A stretch of DNA of 51,103 nucleotides from Clostridia bacterium (lineage in GTDB: Bacteria > Bacillota > Peptococcia > DRI-13 > UBA5745), in assembly GCA_018436095.1 (NCBI GenBank), contig JAHDMJ010000016.1:1-51103 (forward strand), read 5' to 3'. This document shows positions 6,727 to 14,694 of this stretch, piece after piece. How positions within the stretch are numbered: the stretch's first letter is position 1; every line of letters begins with the position of its first letter. Position numbers and translations under genes: made by a program. A model generated the notes under the pieces. That model worked only from the letters and a program-made list of their open reading frames with translations, searched no databases and was not told where the DNA came from.

Positions 6727-8142
6727 ATGGATATTTACGATATCATCATTATCGGCGGAGGTCCCGGAGGCTATAATGCAGCCCTGGCCGGGGCCAGGGC
6801 CGGCTTAAAGGTATTGCTGGCGGAGAAGGAGAAGCTTGGGGGCGTCTGTCTTAATGAAGGCTGTATCCCCTCAAAGGCTTTGCTCTATAGCGCCAAGCTG
6901 CTGGAGGGAGCCAGCCAAGGGGAGAAGTATGGGCTGACGGTGGAAAAGGCTTCCCTGGATCAGGGGAAAGTGATTGACCGCAAAAACAAGGTTGTCCGTA
7001 CTTTGGTTTCAGGGGTCAAAGGCGCTTTGAAGGAAGCCGGTGTTACTCTGGTGATGGGCCAAGGGCAGCTTCTGCCGAAGACCGGTACGGCTTTTGCCGT
7101 CCAGGTAGGGGAGCGGCAGTATTTGGGTAAAAACGTGATTCTGGCTGCGGGCTCCCGGCCTCTTATGCCGCCTATCCCCGGTCTTCGCCAGCAGCGGGAA
7201 AAAGGTTTTGTCCTCACCAGCAAAGAGCTGCTGGATTTGCGGCAGATACCGGCAAGCCTTGTGGTTATCGGCGGCGGCGTCATCGGTCTGGAAATGGCCT
7301 GCTATTATAATGCCGCCGGAGCCCAGGTGACGGTTATTGAGATGCTGCCGAAAATCGGCGGCCAGATCGATGGGGATATTGCTGCTTTACTCCAGAAGAA
7401 TTTGGAGAAAAAGGGCATTGTTTTTCATTTGGCGGCCAAGGTAACGGAGATTACCGAAGGAGCGGTGGTTTACGAGAAAGAAGGCCAGACCCACTCTTTG
7501 CCTGCCGGCCAGGTGCTGGCCAGCTTAGGCCGGGAGCCGAATACGGCGGATCTGGGCCTGACGGAGCTGGGAGTGGCCATGGCCGGCAAAGCCGTGGAAA
7601 CCGACGATTGGCTGCGCACCAATATTCCCGGCTTGTATGCCGTAGGGGATATTAACGGCAAAGTGATGCTGGCCCATACGGCTTATTGGGAAGGAGAGCG
7701 GGCGGTTAAGGATATATTGGGACATGAAAAGCAGACGGGGGAAGCCGCCTCCGGAGCTGAGGTTTCAACCTCTGCCGTGGCTGACTATAGCATGATTCCA
7801 GGGGTGATCTATACCAATCCCGAGGTGGCTTGGGTAGGCAAAAGCGGTGACCTGACGGCAGACCAGGAGCAAAAGTTCTATACCCAGACGATATCCATGC
7901 GGTTTTCCGGCCGCTATTTGGCAGAAAACGAGGGCGGCGACGGTATCTGTAAGCTGGTGCTGGATAAAGAGGACCAGAGCCTGGCCGGCGTTCATATGAT
8001 CGCTAACCACAGCGCAGAAGCCATTACTGCCGCAGCTATCCTGGTATACCGAAAGGCTGCCGTTCAGGAAATCAAGGATTATATATTCCCCCATCCTTCT
8101 CTTTCGGAAATACTGCGGGAAGGTATTCACAGCTTGAAGTAA
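6727..8142 (+). CDS. lpdA: Dihydrolipoyl dehydrogenase (L protein)
   Basis: 471-aa flavoprotein disulfide reductase that re-oxidises dihydrolipoyl-GcvH with NAD+. The N-terminal FAD Rossmann motif is IIIGGGPGGYNAA, and the redox-active disulfide is GGVCLNEGCIPSKAL (Cys about 42 and 47). The NAD domain has VVIGGGVIGLEMACYY, and the second FAD contact is GLYAVGDINGKVMLAHTA. The C-terminal dimer domain contains the His-Glu pair in HPSLSE. All parts are intact. Its position in the gcv operon assigns it to glycine cleavage, although it could also serve other lipoyl complexes. Confidence 0.95.
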   Translation: MDIYDIIIIGGGPGGYNAALAGARAGLKVLLAEKEKLGGVCLNEGCIPSKALLYSAKLLEGASQGEKYGLTVEKASLDQGKVIDRKNKVVRTLVSGVKGALKEAGVTLVMGQGQLLPKTGTAFAVQVGERQYLGKNVILAAGSRPLMPPIPGLRQQREKGFVLTSKELLDLRQIPASLVVIGGGVIGLEMACYYNAAGAQVTVIEMLPKIGGQIDGDIAALLQKNLEKKGIVFHLAAKVTEITEGAVVYEKEGQTHSLPAGQVLASLGREPNTADLGLTELGVAMAGKAVETDDWLRTNIPGLYAVGDINGKVMLAHTAYWEGERAVKDILGHEKQTGEAASGAEVSTSAVADYSMIPGVIYTNPEVAWVGKSGDLTADQEQKFYTQTISMRFSGRYLAENEGGDGICKLVLDKEDQSLAGVHMIANHSAEAITAAAILVYRKAAVQEIKDYIFPHPSLSEILREGIHSLK

Positions 8143-11400: not shown

Positions 11401-11556
11401 TTTCCTTATCCCTCCTGCGCTGGTAGTTTTCCCTATATAAGGTTATCATATGCTCTGAACCGGAAAAGTGCAAGGTTAAAACCGTCAGGACTTGTTCATG
11501 AAAAAAGGTGGCGGACAGCAAGTTTTTGCCGGAATCAGATGTTAGATGAAGCAAAC

Positions 11557-11705
11557 TGCACAAAAAACGAGGCTGTGTGCAATAATTAGTAATCATTACG
11601 GCTTCAAAAGGTGCTTTTTGAGTAATTATGTGCATGATCTTGGCTATTCCGCATTTTTATAGAGAAATTTGAATAAAGTTTCTGCACAACCTCAAATTTT
11701 GAGCA
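11557..11705. repeat. Inverted-repeat element, copy A (about 149 bp)
   Basis: The left end (11557-11581) begins TGCACAAAAAACGAGG and the right end (11683-11705) reads TGCACAACCTCAAATTTTGA and on. The right end is close to the reverse complement of the element ends. A second copy with the same organisation lies at 18819-18978, and the interiors share short stretches (CGGCTTCAA/GGCCTTCAAG near the left, TTGAA...TAA.G near the right). No transposase is encoded. It could be a MITE-like mobile repeat or a structured intergenic element. Confidence 0.6.
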
Positions 11706-11719
11706 ATTTTGAGCAACTG

Positions 11720-11780
11720 GAGCAACTGGCCTTTTGAGCAACTGGCCTTTTGAGCAACTGGCCTTTTGAGCAACTGAGCG
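11720..11780. repeat. 16-bp tandem repeats (GAGCAACTGGCCTTTT)
   Basis: Units start at 11736, 11752 and 11768 (partial), with a variant at 11720, directly adjoining the right end of inverted-repeat copy A. Apparently replication-slippage growth from the GAGCA motif at the element end. No coding function is supported. Confidence 0.75.
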
Positions 11781-11857
11781 CCTGGCTTCTTTGTCCATCT
11801 AGCTCATACTTATTTTCTTTTTTCATGAGCACGCTCTGCTAAATCCGTTCCCCGGAC

Positions 11858-11886
11858 TTGAAAGTACAGGCATAAAACTATATAAT
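11858..11886 (+). promoter_or_regulatory. Promoter P1 in the leader region before the paaK-like operon
   Basis: TTGAAA (11858-11863), 17-bp spacer, TATAAT (11881-11886), then GAGGCAAA. The AATGAGGCAAA overlapping the -10 has a perfect inverted copy (TTTGCCTCATT) at 11943-11953 and a direct copy at promoter P2 (12040-12050). These three boxes may be binding sites for one regulator. Confidence 0.65.
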
Positions 11887-11892
11887 GAGGCA

Positions 11893-12030
11893 AAATATAG
11901 CCCGTCTCCGTTACGTTTTAGTGTAAGCAGTCATCACAATCCTTTGCCTCATTGAAACGCACAGAGGGAAGAAACATTTTTTGAATTGCGATGTTTCTTA
12001 GGAAAAATTTCTACACTCGAAATTTTTCTG
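11893..12030 (+). ncRNA. Candidate small structured RNA or upstream leader from P1
   Basis: RNA initiated at P1 would contain two perfect hairpins: AAGAAACAT (11969-11977) with ATGTTTCTT (11991-11999), and GAAAAATTTC (12002-12011) with GAAATTTTTC (12019-12028). No open reading frame of note is present. The second hairpin is U-rich on its 3' side and could act as a weak terminator, giving an RNA of about 135 nt, or the RNA may run on into the downstream attenuator. No known family was recognised. Confidence 0.35.
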
Positions 12031-12045
12031 CGGATGCGTTATAAT
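12017..12045 (+). promoter_or_regulatory. Promoter P2 of the paaK-like operon
   Basis: TCGAAA (12017-12022), 17-bp spacer, TATAAT (12040-12045) followed by GAGGCAG, the same box as at P1. The start point would be near 12052, giving a leader of about 100 nt before the ATG at 12154. Confidence 0.6.
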
Positions 12046-12068
12046 GAGGCAGTAGCATGGTAGTCTGG

Positions 12069-12133
12069 TAGGGCAATGAATGTTCCCTTGCCTATGGCTT
12101 CTGTGCGTAAATCAGGCCATAGGTTTATTTTTT
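12069..12133 (+). terminator. Attenuator with mutually exclusive antiterminator upstream of the paaK-like gene
   Basis: CCTATGGC (12091-12098) pairs perfectly with GCCATAGG (12116-12123), followed by TTTATTTTTT: an intrinsic terminator ending 20 nt before the start codon. An alternative stem pairs TAGGGCAA (12069-12076) with TTGCCTA (12088-12094), which consumes the 5' arm of the terminator. This is the geometry of a riboswitch or protein-controlled attenuator. No known aptamer consensus was recognised in the roughly 40 nt ahead of it. Confidence 0.7.
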
Positions 12134-12153
12134 GTCAAAGGGGATGAATAGAA

Positions 12154-13455
12154 ATGATATGGAATAAAGAAAGGGAATGCATGGAGCGGCCGGCTATGGA
12201 GGCTTTGCAGCTACAGAGGCTCCAAGAGACAGTGGCCAGGGTTTACCGGCAGGTCCCTTTTTACCGTAAAGCTTTGGAGGAAAAAGGCTTGCGCCCTGAG
12301 GACATCAAGACTTTGGCGGATGTAAGCAAGCTGCCTTTTACGACGAAGCAGGATCTGCGGGATAATTATCCTTACGGGCTCTTTGCCCTGCCCCTTAAAG
12401 ATGTAGTACGGTTGCACGGTTCTTCCGGCACTACGGGCAAGCCTATTGTAGTGGGCTATAGCCGGCAGGATCTGGATGACTGGTCTGAACTTTTGGCTAG
12501 AGTCATTACCCAGGCCACGGTGGGCCCGGAGGACGTGACGCAAATTGCTTTCGGCTACGGTCTTTTTACCGGGGGCTTCGGCCTCCATTACGGTATGGAA
12601 AAAGTAGGGTCCACAGTGGTGCCTATGTCTTCCGGCAATTCAGAAAAGCAGATCATGTTGATGCAGGATTTTGGCACTACCGCTTTGGTATCTACCCCCA
12701 GCTATGCTCTTCATTTGGTAGAAGTGGCTCAAAAAATGGGCATTGATCCCAAAAAGGATCTTAGCCTTCGGGTGGGACTTTTCGGTGGCGAGCCTTGCAG
12801 CCAGGGTATGGAAGCTGCCCTGCAGGAGCTTTGGGGTATTCGGGTTACGGATAATTATGGTCTGACGGAAGTAGGGGGGCCCGGTGTTTCCGGTGACTGC
12901 GGCCTGGGTGAGGGTCAGCATATCAGCGAAGACTTTTATCTGGCGGAGATTATCGATCCCGATACTTGTGAGGTTTTACCTTATGGCGAAGAAGGGGAGC
13001 TGGTCATCACCACCCTGAGAAAAGAAGCCTGCCCCGTACTGCGTTACCGGACCAGGGATATTACCCGGCTGATGCCAGAGCCCTGCTCTTGCGGACGCAC
13101 CACTTTGCGGATGAAAAAAATCCGGGGCCGCAGCGACGATATGCTGATCATTAAAGGCGTCAACGTTTTCCCCTCCCAGATTGAAGTTGTGCTGGCGGAG
13201 GTGGCAGCCGTCGCTATGCATTACCAGATGGTAGTGACGAAAGAAGGCTACAGCGATGCCTTGGAGATTAAGGTGGAATTGGAACCTGCCTATTTTACCG
13301 ACGATTGGCGGCAATTGAAGGAAATCGAGAAAAATATTCTGCGGGTATTAAAGCGGGTAGTCGGTATTGAATGCAAAATCACCCTGGTATCTCCTCAATC
13401 TTTGGAGCGTACAGCCGGCAAAGCCAAGCGGGTGCTGGATTTACGCAACAACTGA
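12154..13455 (+). CDS. Phenylacetate-CoA ligase family (adenylate-forming acyl-CoA ligase)
   Basis: 433 aa, the usual PaaK length. It activates an aryl or related carboxylic acid with ATP and CoA. The P-loop is LHGSSGTTGKPIVVGYS (about residues 87-103), the A5 motif is DNYGLTEVGGPG, and the C-terminal subdomain has the YRTRDITRL hinge region and GRSDDMLIIKGVNVFPSQIE. A catalytic lysine fits near the C-terminus (TAGKAKRVLD). In anaerobes such enzymes often pair with indolepyruvate ferredoxin oxidoreductase in aromatic amino-acid use; no IOR genes are visible here, so the substrate is uncertain. It is preceded by an attenuated leader and followed within 70 bp by the AICAR transformylase gene. 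AAAGGGGATG is the ribosome site. Confidence 0.85.
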   Translation: MIWNKERECMERPAMEALQLQRLQETVARVYRQVPFYRKALEEKGLRPEDIKTLADVSKLPFTTKQDLRDNYPYGLFALPLKDVVRLHGSSGTTGKPIVVGYSRQDLDDWSELLARVITQATVGPEDVTQIAFGYGLFTGGFGLHYGMEKVGSTVVPMSSGNSEKQIMLMQDFGTTALVSTPSYALHLVEVAQKMGIDPKKDLSLRVGLFGGEPCSQGMEAALQELWGIRVTDNYGLTEVGGPGVSGDCGLGEGQHISEDFYLAEIIDPDTCEVLPYGEEGELVITTLRKEACPVLRYRTRDITRLMPEPCSCGRTTLRMKKIRGRSDDMLIIKGVNVFPSQIEVVLAEVAAVAMHYQMVVTKEGYSDALEIKVELEPAYFTDDWRQLKEIEKNILRVLKRVVGIECKITLVSPQSLERTAGKAKRVLDLRNN

Positions 13456-13521: not shown

Positions 13522-14694
13522 ATGGACGAATTGGTATTGAAATACGGCTGCAATCCACATCAAAAACCGGCCCGGATTTTCCGGGAGGAAGGCCCTTTGC
13601 CTATAGAGGTACTAAACGGTAAGCCCGGCTATATCAATTTGCTGGATGCCTTCAACGGCTGGCAATTGGTTAAAGAGTTAAAAGAGGCCACGGGTTTGCC
13701 GGCTGCCACCTCTTTCAAGCATGTAAGTCCCGCCGGCGCCGCCGTTGGACTGCCGCTGGATGATGTGCTGCGCCAAATCTACCGTGTAGAAGAGTGCCGG
13801 CTTTCACCTTTGGCCAATGCTTATGCCCGGGCCAGAGGCGCGGACCGGATGTCTTCTTTCGGCGATTTTATCGCCTTGTCCGATGTTTGCGACGAGGAGA
13901 CGGCAGCTTTGATCGCCCGGGAGGTTTCCGACGGCGTTATCGCGCCCGGTTATGATGAAAAGGCTCTGACCATACTTAAAAGCAAACGCAAAGGCAGCTA
14001 TACCATTATCCGTATCGATCCGGCTTATGTGCCTAAAGACCTGGAAAGAAAGACGGTTTACGGCATCGAATTTGAGCAGGGGCGCAATGATTTGCTTATT
14101 GATCCCAGCGTTTTGACGAATATTCCTACGGTCAAAAAAGATATTCCCGAAAGCAAAATAAAGGATTTACTCATCGCCTTGATTACGTTAAAATATACCC
14201 AGTCCAATTCTGTTTGCTATGTTAAGGATGGACAAGCCATTGGCATCGGCGCCGGCCAGCAGTCCAGAATCCACTGCACCCGCCTGGCGGGGGATAAGGC
14301 GGACCGCTGGTATCTGCGGCAGCATCCTCAGGTGCTGGCCTTGCCTTTTCGTCCTGACTTGGGCCGGCCGGAACGGGATAATGCTACGGACGTCTATTTG
14401 TCCGGCGATGCCCAAGAGGTGTTGGCCCCCGGCCGCTGGGAGCAGTACTTCAGCCGGCAGCCGGAAGCGCTGACTGCGGCTGCTAAAGCAGCCTGGCTGG
14501 CAGGGTTGACGGGTGTGGCTTTAGGTTCCGATGCTTTCTTCCCCTTTGAAGACAACATTCAGCGGGCAGCGGGCAGCGGCGTCAGCTATATTGCCCAACC
14601 CGGCGGTTCTATCCGGGATCAGCAGGTTATTGCTGCCTGCGACAGCTGCGGTATGGTAATGGCTTTCACCGGCATCCGGCTATTCCACCATTAA
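13522..14694 (+). CDS. Stand-alone AICAR formyltransferase (C-terminal part of PurH)
   Basis: 390 aa. It transfers a formyl group from 10-formyl-THF to AICAR in the penultimate step of IMP synthesis. It begins LVLKYGCNPHQKPARIF, the characteristic entry of the AICARFT domain, and carries the catalytic Lys-His in SFKHVSPAGAA, then RGADRMSSFGDFIA, and ends in AQPGGSIRDQQVIAACD. GTAGGAGG just before the ATG at 13522 decides the start; the longer reading frame from 13465 lacks support. Bifunctional PurH is split here: the cyclohydrolase half is at 21447 in the pur cluster. Free-standing enzymes of this kind occur in various Firmicutes. The operon context with a permease for nucleobases fits purine metabolism. 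Confidence 0.9.
   Translation: MDELVLKYGCNPHQKPARIFREEGPLPIEVLNGKPGYINLLDAFNGWQLVKELKEATGLPAATSFKHVSPAGAAVGLPLDDVLRQIYRVEECRLSPLANAYARARGADRMSSFGDFIALSDVCDEETAALIAREVSDGVIAPGYDEKALTILKSKRKGSYTIIRIDPAYVPKDLERKTVYGIEFEQGRNDLLIDPSVLTNIPTVKKDIPESKIKDLLIALITLKYTQSNSVCYVKDGQAIGIGAGQQSRIHCTRLAGDKADRWYLRQHPQVLALPFRPDLGRPERDNATDVYLSGDAQEVLAPGRWEQYFSRQPEALTAAAKAAWLAGLTGVALGSDAFFPFEDNIQRAAGSGVSYIAQPGGSIRDQQVIAACDSCGMVMAFTGIRLFHH

Follow-up and report, generated by a model that had tools for sequence, protein, structure and literature searches.

A candidate lineage-specific attenuator before a paaK-like/AICARFT operon of a Clostridia bacterium and the palindromic repeat that may have replaced its promoter

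What governs transcription of a small set of metabolic genes that begins behind a terminator-like hairpin? The question is raised by a locus on the forward strand of a 51,103-nucleotide contig of a Clostridia bacterium (the window; genome G000). The first gene (12154–13455, +) encodes a member of the paaK-like phenylacetate-CoA ligase family (TIGR02155, PF14535, PF00501); because its TIGR02155 score of 531 bits lies under the equivalog cut-off of 646, it was placed at family level and no substrate was assigned. The second (13522–14694, +) encodes a stand-alone AICAR formyltransferase (AICARFT; NF005492, 677 bits, over the cut-off of 415). A phosphopantetheinyl transferase gene and a uracil-permease-type transporter gene follow 3′ of it, making up a putative four-gene operon. 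Elsewhere in the window, a glycine riboswitch aptamer was found at 1917–2018 (Rfam RF00504, 50 bits), with a dihydrolipoamide dehydrogenase-like ORF (6727–8142) some kilobases downstream.

A preliminary description had treated all of 11858–12153 as the leader region, with two promoters, P1 (11858–11886) and P2 (12017–12045). Both promoter sequences were found where it had placed them. P1, the original promoter, reads TTGAAA-17-TATAAT on the forward strand and shares 93 % identity, over 45 nt, with the corresponding sequence of a congener (G008; record JAHDPO01, a metagenome-assembled genome of a Clostridia bacterium, leader locus L060), in which the gene order at the locus is the same. In the congener, 7 nt separate the P1 TATAAT from TAGCATGG, a direct junction to the leader; this empty site thus consists of TTGAAAGTACAGGCATAAAATTATATAAT, seven bases, and TAGCATGGTAGTCTGG. 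In G000, 159 bp lie between the end of the first TATAAT and the end of the second, against a single TATAAT in G008. The comparison reveals an insertion with duplication of its target, in which the duplication and the end of the element are indistinguishable. The net insertion of 159 bp can be placed at 11887–12045 or shifted across the duplicated TATAAT, and GAGGCA (12046–12051), which flanks it, is also part of the repeat palindrome. Hence only 12052–12153 of the region first described stands as leader; 11887–12051 (+) is an inserted palindromic repeat with many partial copies in the genome. Its left hairpin has the arms AATGAGGCA/TGCCTCATT, and a long right hairpin comes next; a covariance model of the repeat matches 11945–12051 with 66.8 bits. 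The right end (12002–12045, +) consists of the hairpin AAAAATTTC-TACACTC-GAAATTTTT followed by TGCGTTATAAT, and it contains P2, with TCGAAA at 12017–12022, a 17-nt spacer and TATAAT at 12040–12045 on the forward strand. On the other side of P1, about 370 bp of the window (11480–11840), composed of tandem TTTTGAGCAACTGGCC-type units, are missing in the congener; a similar stretch also stands before another copy of the repeat, at L038, ahead of a purB-like gene.

The leader RNA (12052–12153, +) is kept in both G000 and G008. Its length is about 102 nt because the start codon lies at 12154, if transcription starts near 12052 as deduced from P2, which fits the earlier estimate of about 100 nt. The intrinsic terminator that had been proposed for 12091–12133 (+) is present in full, with a perfect 8-bp stem CCUAUGGC/GCCAUAGG and the U-run UUUAUUUUUU. 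The 5′ arm CCTATGGC (12091–12098) pairs with the 3′ arm GCCATAGG (12116–12123), and the U-run TTTATTTTTT (12124–12133) stands directly 3′ of the stem. The isolated hairpin has a predicted energy of −15.2 kcal/mol in G000 and −14.1 kcal/mol in G008. Dinucleotide shuffling of 11858–12153 produced a terminator-like pattern, picked post hoc as a perfect 8-bp stem with at least 4 G/C, a loop of at most 20 and no fewer than 7 T among the next 10 bases, once in 3000 trials. The overall fold energy of 12050–12140 is not exceptional (z −1.45). By sequence and folding, an intrinsic terminator stands between promoter and first gene, as in an attenuation leader.

Energy-based folding of 12052–12133 gave as the best structure in both species not the terminator but an extended antiterminator hairpin (12055–12106, +). 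Its predicted core, GGUAGGG (12067–12073) paired with CCUUGCC (12086–12092), has pair probabilities of 0.75–0.98 and overlaps the terminator stem by 2 nt; the rest of the terminator 5′ arm is sequestered by outer helices (12055–12060/12101–12106 and 12062–12065/12096–12099). A second predicted hairpin (12107–12128, +), formed by GUAAAUC (12107–12113) and GGUUUAU (12122–12128), also occupies the terminator 3′ arm and the U-run. The full terminator fold is worse than the antiterminator by 3.8 kcal/mol in G000 and 4.2 kcal/mol in G008, and in a folding series of the growing chain the antiterminator forms before the terminator. A mutually exclusive antiterminator of better predicted stability is thus present in both species. 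When only the part upstream of the terminator was shuffled, the observed gap was matched in 12 of 1000 cases in G000 and in 61 of 1000 (6 %, which is weak) in G008, from which the competition between the two folds probably exceeds chance, the shuffle test not being decisive. The overlapping antiterminator anticipated in the preliminary description exists, but the pairing given for it, TAGGGCAA with TTGCCTA, lies 4.2 kcal/mol above the best fold.

Between the two species, the leader differs by 5 substitutions and 2 single-base indels in about 100 nt, whereas 56 of 204 fourfold sites (27.5 %) of paaK have changed (dS 0.48; Fisher P about 1e-6 for leader substitutions against these sites). Since it has accumulated 5 changes per about 100 nt against 27.5 % at the fourfold sites, the leader is, on this sequence comparison, constrained. 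The terminator stem carries no substitutions. Position 12080 lies in the apical loop of the first antiterminator hairpin, 12100, 12104 and 12107 in the terminator loop, and 12148 in the spacer ahead of the start codon. G12107A in G008 turns a G·U pair of the second hairpin into A-U, the one pairing change offered by only two leader homologues. T12104C disrupts one outer antiterminator pair, and the outer helix is predicted to be regained in G008 by a shift in register.

The distribution of the leader is narrow. Among 46 genomes of the class that were searched, it was present only in G000 and G008, which belong to one genus, and absent from the other 44. The only extra DNA match, in G012 (37 nt at 82 %), lies amid unrelated sequence, was missed by the model and was rejected. 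Of 24 other paaK loci, those outside the congener are mostly preceded by coding or unrelated sequence and showed no comparable leader, and the region upstream of a paralogous paaK in G000 also lacks one. In another genus of the family (G001), paaK adjoins the AICARFT gene without the leader.

It is somewhat more probable than its opposite that 12052–12153 is a lineage-specific attenuator which is read through by default and whose promoter was replaced by a promoter-bearing repeat. The 5′ half of the nascent leader would fold into the extended antiterminator and tie up the 5′ arm of the terminator, and for this reason read-through is proposed as the default. Were the 5′ strand (12052–12073) occupied or melted before the polymerase reached about 12130, the terminator would be freed and the operon switched off. 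In the B. subtilis trp leader (PMC3913778) and in rplJL (PMC4538822), a 5′ hairpin likewise overlaps the 5′ arm of an intrinsic terminator located before the start codon, with read-through as the default fold. The present leader differs in that no sensor was found, the gene for TRAP is absent, and the triplets are too few and too widely spaced.

The main rival is a fixed brake, in which a constant share of transcripts passes the terminator, as fixed by it and the hairpin overlapping it, and nothing is sensed. An aptamer, a regulator site and a leader-peptide pattern were all searched for and none was found, the leader is short and lineage-specific, and a conserved terminator could equally be such a brake; yet for a brake there is no need to keep about 40 nt ahead of the terminator nearly invariant. 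This reading has a modest chance of being right. Alternatively, a protein might bind the 5′ strand and block the antiterminator, causing termination in a TRAP-like manner. Its candidate site is perhaps the set of three GUAG units, 8 nt apart (12052, 12060 and 12068), as GUAGCAUG-GUAGUCUG-GUAGGGCA is 100 % conserved and constitutes the 5′ strand of the antiterminator. However, no gene for TRAP (PF02081) was detected in G000 by a search whose control detects that of B. subtilis, and a TRAP-regulated leader was rejected on this ground. TRAP triplets are spaced more closely than 5 nt. While the layout matches the B. subtilis trp leader (PMC3913778, PMC4027176), TRAP binds 11 (G/U)AG repeats there (PMC4027176), against only three triplets with 5-nt spacers here. 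Protein-dependent attenuation is for these reasons improbable.

A ribosome might select the fold instead, by translating the mini-ORF AUG GUA GUC UGG UAG (12057–12071, MVVW), which lies within the 5′ strand of the antiterminator, is identical in both species and has its Trp codon next to the stop. Yet a transcript beginning near 12052 would lack a ribosome-binding site, the ORF has four codons, and it is no better conserved than the stretch around it, all of which is invariant; the proposal is very doubtful. The TRAP and mini-ORF ideas are both weak because of the absent TRAP gene and the lack of a ribosome-binding site downstream of the presumed start, respectively. The preliminary description had suggested a new small riboswitch, or else a protein-dependent attenuator, linked to aromatic-acid activation or purine supply. 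A terminator/antiterminator leader does stand ahead of the paaK-like and AICARFT genes and is conserved in the two species, and, as had been stated, no known aptamer precedes the antiterminator: no Rfam covariance model matches the leader. The sub-threshold Rfam matches, among them a CRISPR-repeat-like one, fall in the inserted repeat, and a known riboswitch or other RNA family was rejected. The layout before metabolic genes and the absence of the leader from Rfam would suit a new class, but only about 40 nt precede the terminator, there is no relevant Rfam match even at E up to 10, and the 44 other genomes of the class hold no homologue. With no positive evidence and a leader confined to two species of one genus, the riboswitch reading is unlikely, with hardly any probability left to it. 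The suggested metabolic link fares no better, as the gene pair is kept in G001 without the leader.

The repeat that separates P1 from the leader belongs to a sizeable family. A 122-base probe gave 31 DNA matches in G000, several of which are parts of one copy, and the covariance model matched 29 times in G000, 18 times in G008 and 3 times in G023, a few of these being opposite-strand duplicates or partial; the remaining 22 genomes of the order gave no match. Every copy has at its right end a hairpin and, after it, GAGGCGTTATAAT or a near variant. This hairpin is supported by covariation across 17 aligned copies: two-sided changes occur in 9 of 19 pairs and 95 % of cells pair, whereas shuffles gave 2.1 such pairs and 89 %, and sliding lowered the pairing to 43–50 %. 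Upstream of a prmA-like gene (L004/L156), the arms are GAAAAATTTC in one species and AAGCAAGTTTC in the other; both pair and both keep GAGGCGTTATAAT. Tandem repeat copies or short extra GAGGCGTTATAAT units occur at L046, L051, L034 and L002, where the TTATAAT is common to neighbouring units. The hairpin also occurs at L192, L195 and L198 of G023, whose family within the order is a different one, yet closer relatives are without the repeat; this patchy distribution suggests horizontal movement or repeated loss.

A −35-like hexamer (at least 4 of 6 matches), 16–18 nt before TATAAT, is found in 21 of 27 copies, against 9–13 % (about 11 %) of control positions. A same-strand ORF starts within about 220 nt downstream of 19 of the 23 G000 copies examined, most within 131 nt; the genes concerned include rpsO, prmA, fba, purB, polA and coaBC, named by eye from translations and not by family search. 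The copies that do not face a gene start are L005, L007, L008 and the plus-strand copy of L035, and L005 points at the far end of an apparent RNase P RNA gene. At L008/L152 (G000:C17:188725–188802, G008:C55:29189–29266), a copy and the start of a second lie in frame in an ORF of about 560 amino acids, which carries the repeat at the matching place in both species; there, the protein apparently includes the translated repeat. As copies face same-strand gene starts, P2 is, as judged from its sequence, the repeat's own outward promoter. The leader would now be served by a promoter lying at the outward end of a palindromic repeat that looks mobile.

In being short, non-coding and dispersed in many copies, the family answers to the description of a promoter-bearing MITE of the Correia type. 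Correia elements of Neisseria are promoter-bearing MITEs, and other promoter-bearing miniature elements are known (reviewed in PMC10969869). They share with the present repeat its palindromic character, a location mostly just 5′ of genes and σ70-like promoters, which are here a sequence match only. In contrast to Correia elements, which occur in an unrelated group of organisms and have long terminal inverted repeats, the present repeat has its junction at a TATAAT −10 box and ends in TTATAAT direct repeats with sub-terminal hairpins. Terminal inverted repeats of a known transposase were not found; the ends are direct repeats with internal palindromes. Sub-terminal hairpins and direct-repeat-like ends are reminiscent of the palindrome-associated, nonautonomous elements of the IS200/IS605 type. 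However, no Y1 transposase that might be a partner was found in G000 or G023, and within 1.5 kb of the Y1 gene of G008 no matching ends occur; an IS200/IS605 origin was rejected.

Since the repeat sits exactly at the P1 TATAAT, TATAAT stands at both of its ends. At L047/L143 and L046/L154, a TATAAT present in G008 likewise marks the edge of the insertion, while at further sites this edge is unreadable or lacks a TATAAT. Tentatively, the repeat may use the −10 box TATAAT as its insertion site and itself end in TATAAT, detaching the old −35 with every insertion but restoring a working promoter through the −35-like arm of its hairpin. Host promoters, also those in front of essential genes (rpsO, polA, fba and purB), could in this way be exchanged with the gene left functional, and here the exchange would have taken place before an attenuator with a new sensor.

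On the favoured reading, if correct, this leader would be a lineage-specific attenuator not described before, whose default state can be tested. The inserted element would then illustrate how a promoter can be taken over cleanly, through an insertion into its −10 box that brings a replacement with it. Such a takeover could explain why copies lie just upstream of essential genes and have been kept there in two species.
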